A stretch of DNA of 64,000 bases, taken from NCBI RefSeq assembly GCF_000445475.1, contig NZ_AUPZ01000004.1, forward strand, positions 1-64,000, given 5' to 3'. Below, piece after piece: positions 1,283 through 63,423 of this stretch. The notes under the pieces are model-generated. The model worked only from the letters and a program-made list of their open reading frames with translations, did no database searches and had not been told where the DNA came from. This DNA comes from Sulfurimonas hongkongensis. GTDB taxonomy: Bacteria > Campylobacterota > Campylobacteria > Campylobacterales > Sulfurimonadaceae. The position numbers were made by a program, and so were the translations under genes. Every line of letters begins with the position of its first letter. The stretch's first letter is position 1.

Positions 1283-3452
1283 CTAGTTGTTTAAATCTTA
1301 GTATGAGTCTGTCTTTAGCGCCAACTTCAACCTTACCACCATTTTTTAGTTTACCAAAGAGGATTTCATCGCTTAGTTTATTTGTGATGTTGTCTTGTAT
1401 ATATCTCTTTAGTGGTCTAGCTCCTAACTCTTGTGAATAAGCACTTTTTGCTATGAATTTTTTGGCATTTTGCGAGATGCTAATAGTTATTTTTTTCTTT
1501 TTTAAGTCACTATTTAGCTCATCTATAAACTTCATAACTACGTTCTCAATTGTCTCAATGCTTAGTTGTTCAAACTCAACGATCGCATCTAGCCTGTTTC
1601 TAAACTCAGGAGTAAAAAATGACTTTAGCTCCTCATCCTTAGCTATTGAACTATCTTTGTTAAATCCCATAACACCTCTAGCACTCGCTCCAATATTTGA
1701 AGTCATAATGAGTATAACATTTTGAAAATTTGCCTTATAACCATTGTTATCAGTAAGAGTTGCACTATCCATGATTTGAAGTAAAATATTTACCAAATCA
1801 GGATGAGCCTTTTCTATCTCATCAAGCAGTAAAACTGTGTAAGGATGCTTTTTTATAACTTCGGTAAGCAATCCACCTTGCTCATAACCAACATACCCTG
1901 GAGGTGCTCCAACAAGACGAGAAAGAGCGTGTTTTTCCATATATTCACTCATATCAAATCTCTCAAAATTAACACCTAGTACCTTACTTAGCGATATTGC
2001 AAGCTCAGTTTTACCAACCCCTGTAGGACCTGAAAATAAAAATGAAGCTATAGGTTTATCTGCTGGAGTTAGTCCAGCTTTAGAGATTTTTATAGCTTTT
2101 GCGACTTCTATTATAGCTTTGTCTTGTCCTATGACTTTTGCTTTTAACTCCTCTTCTAAATTCATTAGCTGACTTGTCTCATCTTTACTTACTTTAGAGT
2201 TTGATATGCCTACAATTTTAGAGATAGTTTTTTCTATGTCGTAAGCTGTAATTTTTCTTTTTTTTCTGTCTTTTAGATGAAAAGATGCAGCTGTCTCATC
2301 TATAATATCTATCGCCTTATCAGGTAAAAATCTATCTGTAATATATCTTTTTGAAAGTTCAACTGCACTCTTTAGCGCCTTTGGTGTATAAGTAACATTA
2401 TGATGCTCTTCATATCTACTCTTTAGACCTTGAAGTATTTTATAGCTCACTTTTTCAGATGGTTCATCGATATCGACTTTAGAAAACCTTCTGCTAAGTG
2501 CTTTATCTTTTTCAAAACTGTTTCTATACTCTGCAAAAGTTGTAGCACCCATGCAGGTTAGCTCTCCAGAAGCTAGAGCTGGTTTTAGCTGATTTGCTGC
2601 ATCCATTGTCCCGCTAGTTGAGCCTGCACCTACTAGAGTGTGGATCTCATCTATAAAAAGTATAGCGTTTGGGTGTGCTTTTAACTCATCCATCACGCCT
2701 TTTAGCCTTTTTTCAAAGTCGCCTCTATACTTTGTTCCAGCTAGCATTGCACTAAGATCTAGTGCGAAAAGTTCAGCCTCTTTTATAATATCTGGCACAT
2801 CACCACTAACTATACTCAAAGCTAATCCCTCAGCAATTGCTGTCTTTCCAACTCCAGCTTCACCAACTAAGATAGGGTTGTTTTTTTTGCGTCTGCAAAG
2901 TATTTGGATAACTCTACTTATTTCACTATCTCGTCCAATTACAGGGTCAATTTTACCCTCTTTTGCTTTTTGAAGGAGATTTATAGAAAACTTGCTCAGA
3001 TATGACTCATCGTCCTTAGTTTTACTATCTTCTTTGTGTGAGATGTGTTCTAGAATATCTAGTTTTGATATACCATGCTCATTTAAAAGAGAGTAGCTAA
3101 AACTCTTCTGCTCATCAAATATAGCCGCTAACAAGTCTCCTACATCTGCATTTTGCTGCTGCGCACTTTGAAGATGGATAATCATATTGTCAATGAGCCT
3201 TGATAGTGCTACTGTCTCATATGGGTCTTGATCAATATTTAGGGGAAGAGGATCTATACTAGTTGAGATGTAGATGCCAAGAGCCTCTTTCATCACCTCA
3301 ATATCTCCACCACAAGCTCTAATAATGTCTGAACCCTCTTTTGAGTTTAGTAGTATAAAAAAAACATGCTCAATTGTGAGATACTCATGTCTTAAACTTT
3401 TTGCATATAAAATTGATTTTTGAAATATATCATTTAAACTTGTACTTATCAT
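1263..3452 (-). CDS. clpA: ATP-dependent Clp protease ATP-binding subunit ClpA
   Basis: ClpA is a hexameric AAA+ unfoldase that feeds substrates to ClpP and docks ClpS. The 729-residue protein has a Clp_N domain (about 1-140). The first AAA module has Walker A GEAGVGKT at 197-204 and Walker B FIDEIH at 266-271. The second has GPTGVGKT at 475-482, followed by LLLDEIEKAHPD. A C-terminal ClpB_D2-small domain is present. The long middle domain of ClpB/ClpC is absent, and together with the clpS neighbour this makes it ClpA. Where E. coli ClpA has the IGL ClpP-docking tripeptide, this protein has MGF in the segment GVMGFNKDS, a plausible variant. It begins 1 bp after clpS and overlaps aat at its end. 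Confidence 0.96.
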   Translation of the reverse strand: MISTSLNDIFQKSILYAKSLRHEYLTIEHVFFILLNSKEGSDIIRACGGDIEVMKEALGIYISTSIDPLPLNIDQDPYETVALSRLIDNMIIHLQSAQQQNADVGDLLAAIFDEQKSFSYSLLNEHGISKLDILEHISHKEDSKTKDDESYLSKFSINLLQKAKEGKIDPVIGRDSEISRVIQILCRRKKNNPILVGEAGVGKTAIAEGLALSIVSGDVPDIIKEAELFALDLSAMLAGTKYRGDFEKRLKGVMDELKAHPNAILFIDEIHTLVGAGSTSGTMDAANQLKPALASGELTCMGATTFAEYRNSFEKDKALSRRFSKVDIDEPSEKVSYKILQGLKSRYEEHHNVTYTPKALKSAVELSKRYITDRFLPDKAIDIIDETAASFHLKDRKKRKITAYDIEKTISKIVGISNSKVSKDETSQLMNLEEELKAKVIGQDKAIIEVAKAIKISKAGLTPADKPIASFLFSGPTGVGKTELAISLSKVLGVNFERFDMSEYMEKHALSRLVGAPPGYVGYEQGGLLTEVIKKHPYTVLLLDEIEKAHPDLVNILLQIMDSATLTDNNGYKANFQNVILIMTSNIGASARGVMGFNKDSSIAKDEELKSFFTPEFRNRLDAIVEFEQLSIETIENVVMKFIDELNSDLKKKKITISISQNAKKFIAKSAYSQELGARPLKRYIQDNITNKLSDEILFGKLKNGGKVEVGAKDRLILRFKQLDDSKTK

Positions 3453-3453
3453 T

Positions 3454-3753
3454 TTATTCTTCTTCCATTACTGCTTTTAGTGGAAAACCACTCTCTTTTG
3501 CTTTTTTATGCACCTGCATAACCTTTGTCTCAGCTATCTCATGGGTGTAGATGCCACAAAGACCTCTATTTTTTTTGTGAATATCGAGCATTGTCTGTTG
3601 TGCATCTGAGAGACTTTTGTGAAAGATACTTATGAGAATATCGACCACAAACTCCATTGAAGTATAGTCATCATTTAGTAAATATACCTTATATTTTTTA
3701 GGATATATAACTTCTACTATAGTTTCTTGTTCTAAATCAGTTCTTGTTGCCAT
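3454..3753 (-). CDS. clpS: ATP-dependent Clp protease adaptor ClpS
   Basis: ClpS binds N-terminal Leu, Phe, Tyr or Trp of substrates and hands them to ClpA. The 99 residues contain the signature NDDYTSMEFV (residues 27-36) and, near the C-terminus, CGIYTHEIAETK. These build the N-degron pocket and the ClpA-binding face. It lies 2 bp from the PLP enzyme gene upstream and 1 bp from clpA downstream, so all four genes (PLP enzyme, clpS, clpA, aat) look like one transcript. Length and motifs are canonical. Confidence 0.95.
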   Translation of the reverse strand: MATRTDLEQETIVEVIYPKKYKVYLLNDDYTSMEFVVDILISIFHKSLSDAQQTMLDIHKKNRGLCGIYTHEIAETKVMQVHKKAKESGFPLKAVMEEE

Positions 3754-3755
3754 CT

Positions 3756-4991
3756 CTACCTACTCGCCTGTATAAAATCTTTTATAATATCTTCGGGGTT
3801 TTCTAAACCCATTGAGACGCGAATAAGTCCATCAGAGATACCTAAAAATTCTCTTGTTGCTTCATCAAAATCCTTGTAAATTGTAGAAGCCATGTGAAGA
3901 GCCAGTGTTCTACTGTCGCCAATATTTGCAGTTAGAGTAGCTAATTTTGTTTTGTTTAAAAACTCAAATGCTTTTTCTTTTGTTTTAAAGTCGATACAAA
4001 ACAGAGAGCCACAACCATTTTTAAAATCACTCAGATATCTTTGATGATGCTCGTGTGAGCTAAGTGATGGATGATTTATATCAAGTCCGTTTTTACTTAA
4101 ATCTGCTGTGACTATCTCTATACTTCGCGATACTCTTGAGAGTCTAAGAGGAAGTGTCTCTAGTCCTAGTAAGGTTTGATAACTTGCATGTGCATTCGCA
4201 GTCATTCCAAAATCTCTTAGGGCTCTTTTTTTTGCATTTGCAATGAGTGCCATCTCTTTAGCTCCCTTTATAAACTTTTGCAAAAACTCATATCTTGGAG
4301 ATTTCAATTTGTCTTCGCCATCATTAATTGCGCGAAAAACTGCACAACCGCCAAGCGCGGAGGAGTTTCCTGAGATGATTTTTGTAGTTGAGTAGACACT
4401 AATGTCAGCTCCGAGTTTTATAGTAGAGATGCTAAGAGGGGTTGTAGTGTTGTCAATTATGAGTAAAACCCCATGCTTGTCTGCAATAGCAGCTATCTTT
4501 TTGATATCTGGGAGCTTCATATTTGGATTGCCAACACTCTCTAAAAAGATAATTTTTGTATTTTCATTTATTGTATCCTCAATTAAGGCAAGATCATCAA
4601 CATCAAAAAAGTGAGACTTGACACCAAAACGAGGTAGAGTCTCTGAAAAAAAAGCGTAGGTTCCGCCGAAGAGACCGCCTATAGAGATGATTTCATCGCC
4701 CATTGAGACAATAGACATAACAGCAAGCGTTATAGCCCCCATGCCTGAGCTTGTTGCAATCGCTGCTACTCCAGCGTCCATCTCTGCCATGATGGACTCT
4801 AGTCTTGCGTTTGTTGGATTTCCCATGCGAGCATAGAGTGGTTTTTTCACACTTCCAGAAAAAATGCCCTCAGCCATCTCTGGCGTAGAGTAAGAAAAAG
4901 ATGCAGAGGAAACTATAGCCGGGCTGACAGCTCCATCTTTACTTCCTACTGCTTGGACAAATTTGGTACAATACTCTTCAAAATTATTCAT
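3756..4991 (-). CDS. Cys/Met-metabolism PLP enzyme (O-acetylhomoserine sulfhydrylase / methionine gamma-lyase type)
   Basis: This 411-residue protein belongs to the Cys_Met_Meta_PP family of fold-type I PLP enzymes. Visible landmarks are YARMGNPT, where the Tyr and Arg bind PLP phosphate; TSSGMGAI; the LESVGNPNMKLPDI segment; DNTTTPL; and the Schiff-base lysine in STTKIISG. Members make or break C-S bonds of homocysteine, cystathionine or methionine. The sequence resembles O-acetylhomoserine aminocarboxypropyltransferase and methionine gamma-lyase more than strict cystathionine gamma-synthase, but reading alone cannot fix the substrate. An AAGG ribosome site precedes the ATG. It heads the clpS-clpA-aat operon and is divergent from bioD. 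Confidence 0.85.
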   Translation of the reverse strand: MNNFEEYCTKFVQAVGSKDGAVSPAIVSSASFSYSTPEMAEGIFSGSVKKPLYARMGNPTNARLESIMAEMDAGVAAIATSSGMGAITLAVMSIVSMGDEIISIGGLFGGTYAFFSETLPRFGVKSHFFDVDDLALIEDTINENTKIIFLESVGNPNMKLPDIKKIAAIADKHGVLLIIDNTTTPLSISTIKLGADISVYSTTKIISGNSSALGGCAVFRAINDGEDKLKSPRYEFLQKFIKGAKEMALIANAKKRALRDFGMTANAHASYQTLLGLETLPLRLSRVSRSIEIVTADLSKNGLDINHPSLSSHEHHQRYLSDFKNGCGSLFCIDFKTKEKAFEFLNKTKLATLTANIGDSRTLALHMASTIYKDFDEATREFLGISDGLIRVSMGLENPEDIIKDFIQASR

Positions 4992-5007
4992 TAATCATGC
5001 CTTATAA

Positions 5008-5023
5008 ATTATAAGCGATTATA
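5008..5023 (-). promoter_or_regulatory. Promoter -10 elements for the PLP enzyme-clpS-clpA-aat operon
   Basis: Two TATAAT hexamers read on the minus strand, at 5018-5023 (inside TTTGGTATAAT) and 5008-5013, within the 49-bp gap shared with divergent bioD. No clear -35 is seen, which is common for epsilonproteobacterial sigma-70 promoters. Confidence 0.5.
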
Positions 5024-5040
5024 CCAAAGTAGAGATAAAT

Positions 5041-5688
5041 GTGAAAAAAAGAATTTTTGTTACAGCAACAAACACAGATATTGGTAAGACTTACACAACA
5101 AAACTACTTTTAAGAGAGTTTGCATCTCGTGGTTTTAGAGTTGGAGCCATCAAGCCAATAGAGACTGGAGTGATAAGCACAGATGCCAAAGATGCAAATG
5201 AGCTTTTAAGTGTTTTAAGAGAACTTAATTGTGAGTTTAAAGAGATGACTTTAGAGGATATAGTCCCCATCACTTATGAAAAAGCAGCATCTCCTTTTGT
5301 TGCATCTGAGGGTAAAAAACTAGATATCAAGAAGATTCAAAAGGCAATAGAGAAGCTTGAGATGCATTGTGATATTCTTATCATTGAGGGAGCTGGTGGG
5401 CTTTTAGTTCCAATAGATAGGGAGCTTATGATGGTGGATTTGATAACTCTTTTTAACTCTTCAGCACTTTTAGTTACTCACTGCTCACTCGGATGCATAA
5501 ATGACACACTTTTGAGTAGAAAAGTTTTAGAAGATGCAAAGATAAAACATCAAGTTGCGTTTAATTGTCGTGAGGAAGATAGGAGTTTTGAGGCAATATC
5601 TCTGCCTTACTTTTTAAAGAGTGGATTTGAGGTTATGAAAGTTAGCAAAAATATTGACACTATTTGCGATGTCTTGTATAATCTCTAA
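5041..5688 (+). CDS. bioD: Dethiobiotin synthetase
   Basis: BioD closes the ureido ring of dethiobiotin from 7,8-diaminopelargonate, CO2 and ATP, the step before biotin synthase. The 215 residues start MKKRIFVTATNTDIGKT, the family's modified P-loop (TxTDxGKT). They also show AIKPIETG, where Lys and Thr bind substrate, and EGAGGLLVPI. The start is GTG at 5041; the ATG two bases upstream runs straight into TGA. The ribosome site is weak. It is followed 15 bp later by pyrB in the same direction. No other bio genes are in the window. Confidence 0.93.
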   Translation: MKKRIFVTATNTDIGKTYTTKLLLREFASRGFRVGAIKPIETGVISTDAKDANELLSVLRELNCEFKEMTLEDIVPITYEKAASPFVASEGKKLDIKKIQKAIEKLEMHCDILIIEGAGGLLVPIDRELMMVDLITLFNSSALLVTHCSLGCINDTLLSRKVLEDAKIKHQVAFNCREEDRSFEAISLPYFLKSGFEVMKVSKNIDTICDVLYNL

Positions 5689-58604: not shown

Positions 58605-58780
58605 TGATGGGATTATAGCTAAATGGAGATAATAGTAAGGAATTTGGATGTTATATAGCCATTATCATTAGTCTATATGTGAAAGTTAAATACTTTGATA
58701 AAAATTAACTAATTATCTTAAAAAATATAATTAAACTTAACATAAAATTAATACTCCACTGCTACACTTTATACTTCAAA

Positions 58781-58894
58781 ATTCCTTGTCATGATTTTAG
58801 TTTGGCGACTACAAGAAAGGGAATGTTACGACAAGCACCAATATTGTTTTATTGTTACTTTCATTAATTTAATCGTAAATTATATTTTGGTGTT
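58781..58894 (+). ncRNA. Candidate structured 5' leader of the first TonB receptor, copy 1
   Basis: ATTCCTTGTC (58781-58790) pairs with GAAAGGGAAT (58815-58824), with one mismatch, around a 24-nt loop (58791-58814) that is identical in copy 2. AGCACCAA (58834-58841) pairs with TTGGTGTT (58887-58894). TACACT/TATACT at 58763-58775 would start transcription just before stem 1. The RBS (AGGAGA, 58915-58920) follows stem 2 by 20 bases. The rest of 58605-58780 is AT-rich uvrB and receptor promoter DNA. Confidence 0.6.
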
Positions 58895-58925
58895 GTTTTA
58901 TCAAAACATAAATTAGGAGAAAAAT

Positions 58926-61121
58926 ATGACAAAAGTAAATGGTATAAGTTTATCTTTGATTGTTACTACAGCATTTTTAAATGTAGCAAATGCAGATTCA
59001 ATAGATTTAGGAGATGTTTCCGTAACGGCGACAAAAACAGCAGTTACGACATCTGAATCACCAGCGAGTATTGAAATAATAACTTCAAAAGAGATAGAAA
59101 ATAAGCAGGTGCAACGAGCAGATGAAGCACTAAAGGATGTAGCAGGTGTATATGTTAGATCAGATGCGGATCATACCCCAAATAGTTGGAGTAATGTAGT
59201 TACACTAAGAGGTATTCCTCAATATAGTAGAACTGCTGTATTAGTCGATGGTGTATCAATAAACAACGCCTTTTCTTCTGGAGTAAACTGGTCTAGTATA
59301 GCCGTAGAAGATATAGAAAAGATTGAAGTTGTTAAGGGACCTTTTTCATCATTATACGGTGGAAATGCAATGAGCGGCGTTATCAATATCATACGAAAAG
59401 AACCGACGAAACAAGAATTCAACATAAAAACAGGGTACGGAAGTAATAATTATAAAAACCTAGAATTATCATATAAAGATAAATTTTTTGATTCTTTAGG
59501 CATTAGTGTTAATTACGGACATAAAGAAAGTGATGGATACATAAGTAACCTTGTTATCAAGACACCAAGTAGTGGCATAGGTGGAGTTGATGTGACTGGG
59601 CAGCAATTAACTACTGACTATAAAGGAAATGCTAAGTATATTGTGGGAGATAAAGGTGAAAAATCTTGGAAACAAGACAATATTGGAGTAAAAATATTTT
59701 ATGATATTAATAATAATTCAAAAATAATATTTGATTATAATCATCATGAAGATGAAACAGAATATAATAGTTTCAATACCTACTTAACTGATAGTTCTGG
59801 CAATCCCATTTACTCTGGAAGTGTGCAACTTGACGTAGCAAATAAAGCAACACTTTCAGAAAAAGATTTTTTATTCGGTCCAAACGGTGAAACATCTGAT
59901 AAATTCACAATAAATTATACGAATACATTTAATGATACTATGGATTTAGAGGCTAAGGCAAGTTATATTAAAAATGACTATTGGTATGTCTCTCAAACAA
60001 CAGGAGCTGTTTCTGAGGGTGGTCCTGGAAAATTTACTGATATACCGAGTCAAAAAACATTTGCATCTGCGCAGTTGAATTTTCAATTGGGTGATTATAA
60101 TTATATAACTACAGGGATAGATATAACTAGAAATGAGTTGCAAAAAGATATCAATACGTTAACGAATTGGAGAGATTATGATAGCAAAACAACTTTGCAA
60201 AGAGAGAATAATGGAGAGAGTATCACAAAAGCGTTCTTTATACAAGACACGATAGATATAACAAAAAATTTGATAGCTTATATTGGCGGAAGATACGATT
60301 ATTGGGAGACAGAAGGTGATTTTAAAGACTATATAAATGATAATTACACAACTTACGAAAAAAGACATGATTCATATTTTAGTCCTAAAGTATCATTAGT
60401 CTATTTGCCTACAAAAAGCACGACGCTAAGGACTTCTTGGGGGAAGGCTTTTCGAGCACCATCTTTAAGTGATATGTATTCGACATGGATATCTTCTTCT
60501 GGAAAAGTATATCAATCAAGCCCAAACTTAAAACCGGAGACAGTAACATCTTGGGAGGTAGGTTTTGAGCAAAAATTTAGTACTAAAACTCAACTAAAAG
60601 CAACATATTATGAAAATGTTTTATATGACATGATGTATTCAACAGATGTGAGTACTACATTAAGTGAAAAACGAAATGCTGGTAAAGCAGAGATAAAAGG
60701 ACTTGAGATTGAAGTTAAACAGGCAATCACAGAGAGCATAAATATGTTTGCTAACTACACATATAACAAGACAGAAATGATAGAGAACGATTCTAAACCG
60801 GCAAGTGTCGGGAAACAGTTGACTTATGTACCTGAAAAACAGTTCAATATAGGGGTAAGTGGAAATACTGCTTTATGGAATGGTTCAATCATAGGTTCAT
60901 ATGTAGATGATATGTATACAACAGATGATAATACAGATGTTATAAAAGACGTCTATGGCGCTTATGAATCATACTTTATTGTCAATGCAAAGATAGGATA
61001 TAAAATACAAGATTATTTAAGTGCATCACTTTCTATAAATAATTTATTTGATAAAGAATACTTTCAGTCTGATATGACTCCGGGAAGAACTGTTTATGGT
61101 GAATTGTCATTTAAATTTTAA
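58926..61121 (+). CDS. TonB-dependent outer-membrane receptor, 731 residues
   Basis: The protein has a signal peptide (cleavage near ANA-DS at residue 23), a TonB box-like SVTATKT, and a plug domain (about 45-155) with GVYVRSDADH and IEVVKGPFSSLYGGNAMSGVINI. A 22-strand barrel follows, ending in GELSFKF with a C-terminal Phe. The barrel region GKAFRAPSLSDMYSTW is typical of siderophore and cobalamin receptors. The substrate is unknown. The signal-peptide DNA is nearly identical to that of the second receptor, while the barrels differ strongly. Confidence 0.92.
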   Translation: MTKVNGISLSLIVTTAFLNVANADSIDLGDVSVTATKTAVTTSESPASIEIITSKEIENKQVQRADEALKDVAGVYVRSDADHTPNSWSNVVTLRGIPQYSRTAVLVDGVSINNAFSSGVNWSSIAVEDIEKIEVVKGPFSSLYGGNAMSGVINIIRKEPTKQEFNIKTGYGSNNYKNLELSYKDKFFDSLGISVNYGHKESDGYISNLVIKTPSSGIGGVDVTGQQLTTDYKGNAKYIVGDKGEKSWKQDNIGVKIFYDINNNSKIIFDYNHHEDETEYNSFNTYLTDSSGNPIYSGSVQLDVANKATLSEKDFLFGPNGETSDKFTINYTNTFNDTMDLEAKASYIKNDYWYVSQTTGAVSEGGPGKFTDIPSQKTFASAQLNFQLGDYNYITTGIDITRNELQKDINTLTNWRDYDSKTTLQRENNGESITKAFFIQDTIDITKNLIAYIGGRYDYWETEGDFKDYINDNYTTYEKRHDSYFSPKVSLVYLPTKSTTLRTSWGKAFRAPSLSDMYSTWISSSGKVYQSSPNLKPETVTSWEVGFEQKFSTKTQLKATYYENVLYDMMYSTDVSTTLSEKRNAGKAEIKGLEIEVKQAITESINMFANYTYNKTEMIENDSKPASVGKQLTYVPEKQFNIGVSGNTALWNGSIIGSYVDDMYTTDDNTDVIKDVYGAYESYFIVNAKIGYKIQDYLSASLSINNLFDKEYFQSDMTPGRTVYGELSFKF

Positions 61122-61297
61122 AAAAAGAATGAAGCATCTAAAGCTTTTGAAACAACGCAATTAATTTTGTAAATCAACCTATAATTAAAAATGTATGAAT
61201 ATACATTTTCTTTAGTAAAGATTTATAAATACACTTAATTATTGGAATTAAACTTAATATAAAATTAACACTTTGTTGCTATACTTTAAACTTCTAA

Positions 61298-61396
61298 ATT
61301 CCTTGCCATGATTTTAGTTTGGCGACTACAAGGCAAGGAATGGCGACAAGCACCAAGATGATTTTATCATTATTTTAGTTAATCAACATTGGTGCT
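61298..61396 (+). ncRNA. Candidate structured 5' leader of the second TonB receptor, copy 2
   Basis: ATTCCTTGCC (61298-61307) pairs perfectly with GGCAAGGAAT (61332-61341) around the same 24-nt loop as copy 1. AGCACCAA (61349-61356) pairs perfectly with TTGGTGCT (61389-61396). Pair 9 of stem 1 is C-G here and T-A in copy 1, and a G-T pair in copy 1 stem 2 is G-C here. TATACT (61280-61285) places a start near 61292. GGAGAT upstream of the ATG follows stem 2. No gene lies in 61122-61297. Confidence 0.65.
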
Positions 61397-61425
61397 ATAT
61401 ATTATATAAACCGTGGAGATGAAAA

Positions 61426-63423
61426 ATGACAAAAGTAAATGGTATAAGTTTATCTTTGATTGCTGTTGCAATATTTTTAAATGTAGCAAATGCTGATTCA
61501 ACAGATTTGGGTGAAGTCTCTGTTACAGCTACAAAAACAGAGAGAAAAGTTTCTGATGTGCCGGCGAGTATTAATATCATTACAGAACAAGATATTGAAA
61601 ACTCAGTTGCTTTAAGTGCGAATGAAAGTTTAAAAAATATTGCCGGTTTAAATATACGAAACAGCATGGGATTAATGTCTGTTGATACAAGCAATAAGGT
61701 ATATATGAGAGGCTTTGGGGGAAGCGATGCTCGCTCTTTAGTGTTAATAGATGGCGTTCCTATGAATGATCCATATACGGGCGCTGTAGATTGGAATCAG
61801 ATTCCAATGAGTTCAATAAAAAGAATAGAAGTGGTTAAAGGTTCCGGTTCTTCACTGTATGGTTCAAATGCAATGGGTGGTGTCATTAATATTATTACTA
61901 AAAAACCCAAAGAACAAAAAACTGATATTGCTCTTAGTTATGCAAGCATGAATACTAAGATAGGTTCAATCTCTACTACTGGAAAGGTTGGTAAATTTGG
62001 TTATTTTTTATCTGGTCAAATAGCAGAAAGTGATGGATATATAACTGATGTAGCTGCTAATCAGAAAGAAAATACTATCAAAAGAGGTGTTGAGAGAGAG
62101 AATGCAAATATAAAGTTTACATATGACATTGACGACACTTCAGATATCACAGCTTCTTATATTTATTATCATAATCAAGATGTGGGTGGCTTAGATGTGC
62201 CTAGTGGCTATAATCCATACGAAAAGACAATGCATACACTTCAAGCAACTTATGCAAAATTTTTTGACAATTTATCAGATATGAAAATTACTATCTACAG
62301 TAAACCCGGTGAGAATTCGTATGACTCATTAAAATATAATGCGACTTATCAAACAGAATTGCAATATAAAGATGAAGGTAAAAACGATGATTATGGTGCA
62401 ACTGCCCAATATACCATTCCAATAGAAGATCATATTATAACGGCTGGGGTTGATATGAAAAATAGTTATGCAGAAAAAAAAGATATTTACGCTACAGGTG
62501 ATACTATATTTAAAAAAGGAAGTCAAGACTATTATGGAATATTTGCGCAAGATGAATGGTTTGTAAATAAACAATTTATTTTAAACATTGGTGCAAGAAT
62601 AGATTACTATAAAAATCATAGCGGTGAAATGCATGATGAAGTCAATAGCATTGATACAAATTATAAGGAGAAAACATTTAATGCTTTTAGTCCTAAAATT
62701 GGAGCAGTTTATCATGCAACTAAATCAACATCTTTAAGAGCCTCTATAGGTAAAGCATTTAGAGCACCAACTGTAAGTGACCTCTATAGTAATTGGGTAT
62801 ATTATTCGAATGTGTATGCAGGAAATCCAAATTTAGATCCGGAGACCGTGATCTCTTATGAAATTGGAGTAGATCAAAAAATTGTAAATGGCAATATTCA
62901 TATTACAGCGTATAGAAGTGATGCTGAGGATTTTATATATTCTATAGACCCGCTTGATCCCTCAAGTACAAATTATAAAGAGAAAACCAATGTGGGTGAA
63001 GTAGAGATTCAAGGGGTGGAGCTTGAAGTTGATTATACTTTTACAGATGCGTTAAAAGCAATGGCTAACTACACATACAATGAATCAAAAATCAAAAAAT
63101 TTGAGGCTAACAGTGCACTAGAGGGCAAATACTTAACATATGTTCCAAAAAATAAAGCTTCAGTTTCTATTGAGTATATGAACCCAAAAATTATTAATAT
63201 AATTGCTAGTGGAAGATATGTGGGAAAACGTTATAGTGATGATGCAAATACAGAATCTAGTGCATATGAGAGTTACACTCTGTTTGATTTAAAGTTATCA
63301 AGAAGCATAACTAAAAATAGCCAACTTGAAGTAAGTGTAGATGATTTGTTTGATAGAGGGTATATAGAATATCATAACTCCCCAGGAAGAGTTGTAATGG
63401 CAACTCTTAAAATAAGTTTTTAA
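61426..63423 (+). CDS. TonB-dependent outer-membrane receptor, 665 residues
   Basis: This receptor starts MTKVNGISLSLI like its neighbour, with a signal peptide ending near residue 23, a TonB-box region SVTATKTE, and a plug with IEVVKGSGSSLYGSNAMGGVINI. The barrel contains GKAFRAPTVSDLYSNW and ends MATLKISF. It is 66 residues shorter than the first receptor. The stop is 2 bp before a secreted protein gene, so that gene is probably its operon partner. Its likely load is a metal chelate or vitamin; the sequence does not tell which. Confidence 0.92.
   Translation: MTKVNGISLSLIAVAIFLNVANADSTDLGEVSVTATKTERKVSDVPASINIITEQDIENSVALSANESLKNIAGLNIRNSMGLMSVDTSNKVYMRGFGGSDARSLVLIDGVPMNDPYTGAVDWNQIPMSSIKRIEVVKGSGSSLYGSNAMGGVINIITKKPKEQKTDIALSYASMNTKIGSISTTGKVGKFGYFLSGQIAESDGYITDVAANQKENTIKRGVERENANIKFTYDIDDTSDITASYIYYHNQDVGGLDVPSGYNPYEKTMHTLQATYAKFFDNLSDMKITIYSKPGENSYDSLKYNATYQTELQYKDEGKNDDYGATAQYTIPIEDHIITAGVDMKNSYAEKKDIYATGDTIFKKGSQDYYGIFAQDEWFVNKQFILNIGARIDYYKNHSGEMHDEVNSIDTNYKEKTFNAFSPKIGAVYHATKSTSLRASIGKAFRAPTVSDLYSNWVYYSNVYAGNPNLDPETVISYEIGVDQKIVNGNIHITAYRSDAEDFIYSIDPLDPSSTNYKEKTNVGEVEIQGVELEVDYTFTDALKAMANYTYNESKIKKFEANSALEGKYLTYVPKNKASVSIEYMNPKIINIIASGRYVGKRYSDDANTESSAYESYTLFDLKLSRSITKNSQLEVSVDDLFDRGYIEYHNSPGRVVMATLKISF

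Follow-up and report, generated by a model that had tools for sequence, protein, structure and literature searches.

What lies between the promoters and the start codons of two TonB-dependent receptor genes of Sulfurimonas hongkongensis, and could it be an RNA that takes part in their control? The window, that is, the whole stretch of 64,000 nucleotides analysed here, carries both genes near its end, and the preliminary description had raised the possibility that the first one is preceded by a structured leader RNA not described before, with an identical 24-nt loop ahead of the second. Our analysis placed the two leaders where that description had seen them, copy 1 at 58777-58899 and copy 2 at 61294-61401, and in both copies the layout runs from a P1 hairpin with the invariant GUUUGGCGAC loop through a P2 hairpin and a ribosome-binding site to the ATG of a TonB-dependent receptor. 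The features of the locus are as follows.

58737-58754, + strand: direct-repeat box preceding leader copy 1, TTAACAT-AAAA-TTAATAC, from sequence; the same box precedes homologous leaders.
58763-58768, + strand: predicted -10 TACACT, 8 bp after the box, from sequence; the spacing matches copy 2 and several homologues.
58777-58899, + strand: structured leader RNA copy 1; scored by covariance model R3 at 103.4 bits, E 1.1e-15.
58781-58790, + strand: P1 5' strand of copy 1, from alignments with covariation.
58800-58809, + strand: loop core GTTTGGCGAC of P1, copy 1, with upper stem GUU/GAC and UGGC tip; identical in nearly all homologues.
58815-58824, + strand: P1 3' strand of copy 1, from alignments with covariation.
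58834-58841, + strand: P2 5' strand of copy 1, from alignments with covariation.
58887-58894, + strand: P2 3' strand of copy 1, from alignments with covariation.
58915-58919, + strand: Shine-Dalgarno AGGAG of receptor 1, from sequence.
58926-61121, + strand: TonB-dependent receptor 1, 731 aa; Pfam Plug and TonB_dep_Rec_b-barrel.
61254-61271, + strand: direct-repeat box preceding leader copy 2, TTAATAT-AAAA-TTAACAC, from sequence.
61280-61285, + strand: predicted -10 TATACT of copy 2, from sequence.
61294-61401, + strand: structured leader RNA copy 2; scored by covariance model R3 at 105.8 bits, E 3.8e-16; fold z -4.35.
61298-61307, + strand: P1 5' strand of copy 2, from alignments with covariation.
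61317-61326, + strand: loop core GTTTGGCGAC of copy 2, from sequence.
61332-61341, + strand: P1 3' strand of copy 2, from alignments with covariation.
61349-61356, + strand: P2 5' strand of copy 2, from alignments with covariation.
61389-61396, + strand: P2 3' strand of copy 2, from alignments with covariation.
61426-63423, + strand: TonB-dependent receptor 2, 665 aa, by Pfam; first gene of an operon running past the window end.

The details seen earlier in the two copies were reproduced. The loop string CATGATTTTAGTTTGGCGACTACAAG is the same in both, the identical loop stretch common to them measuring 26 bases, and a 23-mer out of CATGATTTTAGTTTGGCGACTACAAG has exactly two occurrences in the window, where shuffled sequence would lead one to expect 0. 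Stem 1 keeps its pairing despite a base change (T-A in copy 1, C-G in copy 2), and stem 2 keeps it with a G-T in copy 1 and a G-C in copy 2. The shared -10 is a TAYACT hexamer at 58763-58768 and 61280-61285, from which transcription is predicted to begin near 58775 and 61292, the former not far from the 58780 given before for copy 1. Copy 2 folds with a z of -4.35 (0 of 200 shuffles as good); copy 1, whose stem 1 contains a G.A mismatch, folds on its own no better than its shuffles (z -0.60). Since leader and receptor signal peptide form a single duplicated cassette in the window, the two copies alone are insufficient as proof, and the case for a leader RNA is one that rests on homologues in other genomes. 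The leader and signal-peptide segment is also common to two divergent receptor families (MTKVNGISLSL... and MIKVNGIRLSL...; window 58922-59040 and 61422-61540; L088, L085), which suggests that the leader moves as a cassette together with the receptor N-terminus.

When 228 genomes of the family were searched at the DNA level, strong matches came up in eight more genomes, and several of the carriers are Sulfurimonas metagenome-assembled genomes. Covariance model R1 found 12 strong copies and one distant copy in the family and two in another family, f7, which may be Arcobacteraceae; R2 and R3, rebuilt on wider sets, added more copies in f7 and two further genera of the first family, and across the phylum 397 evenly sampled genomes gave matches only in the same two families. 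The leader stands directly upstream of a TonB-type receptor at 23 loci in these two families of the order (two in the window, three in G115, and one each in G191, G109, G015, G096, G114, G013, G020, G022, G023, G219, G558, G519, G601, G617, G602, G572, G595 and G611), and more than a dozen species besides the window organism carry it. Pfam identified the receptors of the window and of G013; those at the remaining loci were recognised by a plug-like N-terminal sequence. The weakest of these copies, in G219, scores 33 bits and has a short P2. One extra copy (L066/L078) heads an operon for respiratory-oxidase-like subunits, in which cytochrome c domains are found together with a CcoG-like polyferredoxin and a redoxin. 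The distribution is patchy, the main form being present in about 12 of the 228 genomes of the family. A weak match, L163, lacks the core motif and was taken as spurious.

These homologues covary. The later alignments were fitted to the covariance model and are biased towards its structure; in the one of 24 sequences, 18 of 22 pairs had changed on both sides against a shuffle mean of 10.5 (0 of 500 shuffles reached 18), double-change cells numbered 89 against 28.2 in shuffles, and 91% of the cells were paired against 33-50% with the partners slid. Changes on both sides affect nine of the ten pairs of P1 and seven of the eight of P2, and two of the four pairs of the upper stem beside the tip are invariant. 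Alignment A3 of the 12 closest sequences (MAFFT), which was not fitted to the model, contains seven pairs with changes on both sides, the smaller earlier alignments gave the same picture, and an independent RNAalifold consensus returned the same P1 and P2. The P1 stem varies widely in sequence with its pairing kept (ATTCCTTGCC, GTTCTCTATC, CTTGTCTATG, ACCCCCTGCCC) around a fixed tip: GUU-UGGC-GAC is nearly invariant, the exceptions being UUGGUG in G013, UUGGCA in G601 and UUGGCC in G611, and the altered upper stem is still paired in G601 and in G611 (UUGU..ACAA). A C.A mismatch recurs within P1 of many members. The order of elements is constant (box, -10, P1, P2, SD, ATG), and the leader measures 125-149 nt up to the ATG. 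Homologues with covariation in other genomes rule out chance, as well as a recent local duplication, and the wider covariance-model search called for at the outset turned up what had been named as support, namely further copies before TonB genes in which additional pairs covary. By these comparisons the leader is in all likelihood a real, conserved cis-regulatory RNA.

Could the conserved object be DNA instead, such as a cruciform, an operator or a recombination site? The G.U pairs (23) do not significantly exceed the A.C combinations (19), so the RNA strand has to be argued from position and not from wobble pairs, and related hairpins occur on mobile elements. Nevertheless, the hairpins of the receptor leaders always lie between the -10 and the SD in the orientation of the gene, with P2 and the spacing kept, which makes a DNA element quite improbable.

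A translated leader peptide acting by attenuation or ribosome stalling is highly improbable. It would read GTT TGG CGA CTA as V-W-R-L within MILVWRLQGKEW..., and an in-frame ATG does open MILVWRLQ... in the window copies and some relatives, as does a 24-codon frame after AGGAGG enclose the related hairpin of the kdsA leader. However, most receptor leaders lack a start codon in that frame, a TGA falls inside it in G013 and a stop beside it in G558, and from one relative to another it is displaced by indels of one and two bases. GTT and CGA are constant at their third positions, and the bases that do vary alter residues or create stops. Shifted frames, stops and missing starts in place of a conserved start and frame with synonymous variation refute the peptide for the family as a whole.

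The P1 hairpin was also found apart from the receptors. The identical tip on different stems stands upstream of kdsA in three genomes (L126, L160, L162), with compensatory stem changes among them, and in f7 genomes the GTTTGGCGAC hairpin lies within long stretches between genes, close to integrase genes (L118, L119, L120). Tip hairpins are present on mobile elements as well (L094/L117, L164). Outside the receptor leaders the stems of the module reach 10-15 bp, or 7 bp at L120; at random sites a stem of 10 bp is met in about 1% and one of 13 bp in 0.06%, rates that are a guide and not a test, the module sites having been found via model or motif matches. Further GTTTGGCGAC 10-mers in carrier genomes fall mostly in coding sequence and form no hairpin. 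The recurrence of the hairpin on other stems suggests a trans-acting binder of the loop.

Some of these sites deserve a description of their own. In the kdsA-ribH leader (L126, L160 and L162, about 1400-1620) the covarying GTTTGGCGAC hairpin has 13-15 bp, is followed by a terminator-like hairpin and is enclosed by an outer helix. The intergenic stretches at L118 (about 4000-5600), L119 (about 3400-4900) and L120 (minus strand, about 4624) exceed 1 kb and have the conserved segments GGAGAATA...GGAGGT..., GTTGAGGATAAAGTATTGTCTG and AAGCGGTAGAGTGTAAGGACTGCACTG; they look like a large structured RNA, and a comparison of these regions with Rfam gave no match. Hairpins with a GTTTGGYGAC tip (L094/L117 at 4577 and 5696, L164 at 1523) stand beside a gene for a DNA-binding protein on conjugative or integrative elements, and in L117 two of them have opposite orientations.

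An antisense small RNA pairing with the loop would suit a target that is invariant and exposed. However, no free-standing copy of the perfect 10-nt complement GTCGCCAAAC was found in two carrier genomes, G191 and that of the window: its only occurrences are in the leaders themselves and at a glnA-like coding site (C9:136190). This search covered full 10-nt matches only, and we consider such a small RNA improbable.

A riboswitch for a metabolite or metal calls for closer consideration. Here P1 with its internal loop and tip would be the aptamer, P2 the output helix, and the ligand whatever the receptor imports. Some features typical of this class are present, i.e., a structured, conserved 5' leader, covarying helices and invariant loop nucleotides; the unpaired nucleotides are invariant while the stems covary, the leader stands upstream of uptake genes, and metal-related genes (NosL, DUF4198-like, CcoG-like polyferredoxins, PepSY_TM) are found in the box regulon and the operons. 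Against this reading, the conserved part amounts to one small hairpin tip, the leader contains no clear mutually exclusive pairing, and the hairpin occurs without P2 in contexts unrelated to uptake, such as the kdsA leader and mobile elements. On this balance a riboswitch appears doubtful.

The cargo of the receptors bears on the same question. The receptor operons often include a NapH-like ferredoxin, a double-cubane-type protein and its activase, a DsbD-like protein and ExbB/ExbD/TonB; the double-cubane family was assigned on the homologue in G013. The operon of receptor 2 continues with a NapH-like ferredoxin, a double-cubane-type protein and a DsbD-like protein (L043:3427-7308), and in G595 the leader operon has a NosL gene as its neighbour. 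At L081:9383-17127 we also noted a TonB-receptor operon with a NapH-like ferredoxin, a double-cubane-cluster-type reductase and activase, and DUF4198-like and DsbD-like proteins. The L043 and L081 operons look like a putative reductive uptake system. The cargo may be a metal, perhaps copper.

Upstream of all leaders stands a TTAACA direct repeat of period 11, with the -10 about 8 bp after it in clear cases and three repeats common in f7 members. The box TTAACAYAAAATTAACAC, with one mismatch allowed, gave 51 matches in 120 genomes of the genus vs 1 for a reversed control pattern. We fetched 30 box loci for their downstream genes (L128-L157): these are mostly TonB receptors, most of them without the leader RNA, along with NosL-like or CPVCGM-motif proteins, ExbB, an OmpR-type response regulator and, by inspection, DUF302-like proteins. 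Immediately upstream of the leader, three f7 genomes have genes for a histidine kinase and an OmpR-type regulator. A 7-4-7 layout of direct repeats before the -10 is typical of OmpR/PhoB-type regulators, and the box is positioned as a response-regulator site would be. The genes that follow it likely belong to a two-component regulon for outer-membrane uptake, in which the RNA would be an extra layer on some members.

How might this layer work? We give about even chances to a cis-acting structured 5' leader of TonB-dependent receptor mRNAs in which recognition of the loop controls receptor synthesis. A promoter of the response-regulator type (TTAACA repeat, period 11, about 8 bp before the -10) would drive transcription from a start a few bases before P1; at this step the DNA pattern is conserved and we infer its function. 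Next, as covariation shows, the leader folds into P1 and P2: P1 is a hairpin of about 10 bp that has an internal loop and is capped by the invariant tip GUU-UGGC-GAC, while in P2 about 8 bp enclose an A/U-rich loop, and this helix stops some 20-35 nt before the start codon. A factor bound to the P1 tip would change how P2 and the start region are shown to the ribosome, or to an RNase, and thereby add a second control of receptor synthesis on top of transcription. Control of translation in particular, through a trans-acting factor that binds the loop, is a proposal we make tentatively. Our first guess for the factor is a conserved RNA-binding protein and our second a small ligand, a protein being favoured because the P1 module recurs in unrelated RNAs and a ligand because of the gene context. 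P2 does not cover the SD.

Two simpler switches found no support. On inspection, the U tracts after P2 are short, missing or inconsistent, and P2 is not a convincing intrinsic terminator. Pairing of the P1 5' strand with the SD, although suggestive to the eye, was no stronger in cognate than in swapped pairs (mean -6.42 vs -6.42 kcal/mol, permutation p 0.50).

In a bolder and unlikely version, the P1 loop may be the site of an undescribed chromosomal RNA-binding regulator, or an aptamer for a ligand, perhaps copper, that would control TonB receptors, the oxidase operon, kdsA leaders and mobile-element RNAs alike. Were this true, it would be a new post-transcriptional regulatory system or the first copper riboswitch. 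As it stands, the family is a well-delimited RNA whose stems covary strongly around an invariant tip; it is linked to operons for outer-membrane uptake with a double-cubane-type reductase and activase, and it makes two questions testable: what cargo these receptors carry, and what binds the GUUUGGCGAC hairpin that is present also in unrelated transcripts.

The first reading of the sequence had not seen the strings of common riboswitch classes. A cmscan of the window region and homologous loci against Rfam 15, riboswitch classes included, at permissive thresholds gave no family reaching its gathering score, the sub-threshold matches being nearly all to eukaryotic families, with a single one to SorX that lay outside the leader. 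Searches of the literature on TonB and riboswitches in Sulfurimonas or Arcobacter, on double-cubane proteins and TonB, and on copper riboswitches found no description of the leader in the papers searched. As far as Rfam 15 and this literature show, the leader is very probably a control RNA that has not been described before. The first proposal, of an undescribed structured leader RNA, is supported by the covariance-model homologues upstream of TonB genes. Judged from sequence, this is a new family of cis-acting leader RNA, of a kind already known.

To our knowledge, few cis-regulatory RNAs before TonB receptors are known besides cobalamin riboswitches. The cobalamin riboswitch (Rfam RF00174) upstream of btuB-type TonB receptors is likewise a structured leader RNA before a TonB-dependent receptor gene, but no cobalamin model matches our leader, and fold and conserved strings differ. 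The box resembles the Pho box of Escherichia coli, in which 7-bp direct repeats 4 bp apart replace the -35, and TTAACAT-AAAA-TTAACAC has the same 7-4-7 layout; unlike the Pho box, it has another repeat sequence and is followed by TonB and NosL genes, not by pst/phn. Iron-responsive elements and ANTAR-target hairpins are small, modular binding sites for regulatory proteins, in which a variable stem carries an invariant loop, and they are present in several transcripts. P1 is like them in its fixed loop, free stem and occurrence in several transcripts. Its loop is UUGGCG, unlike the CAGUGN loop with bulged C of the iron-responsive element, and in place of the two adjacent hexaloop hairpins with A1/G4 of ANTAR targets the leader has this loop in P1 and a long, variable one in P2.
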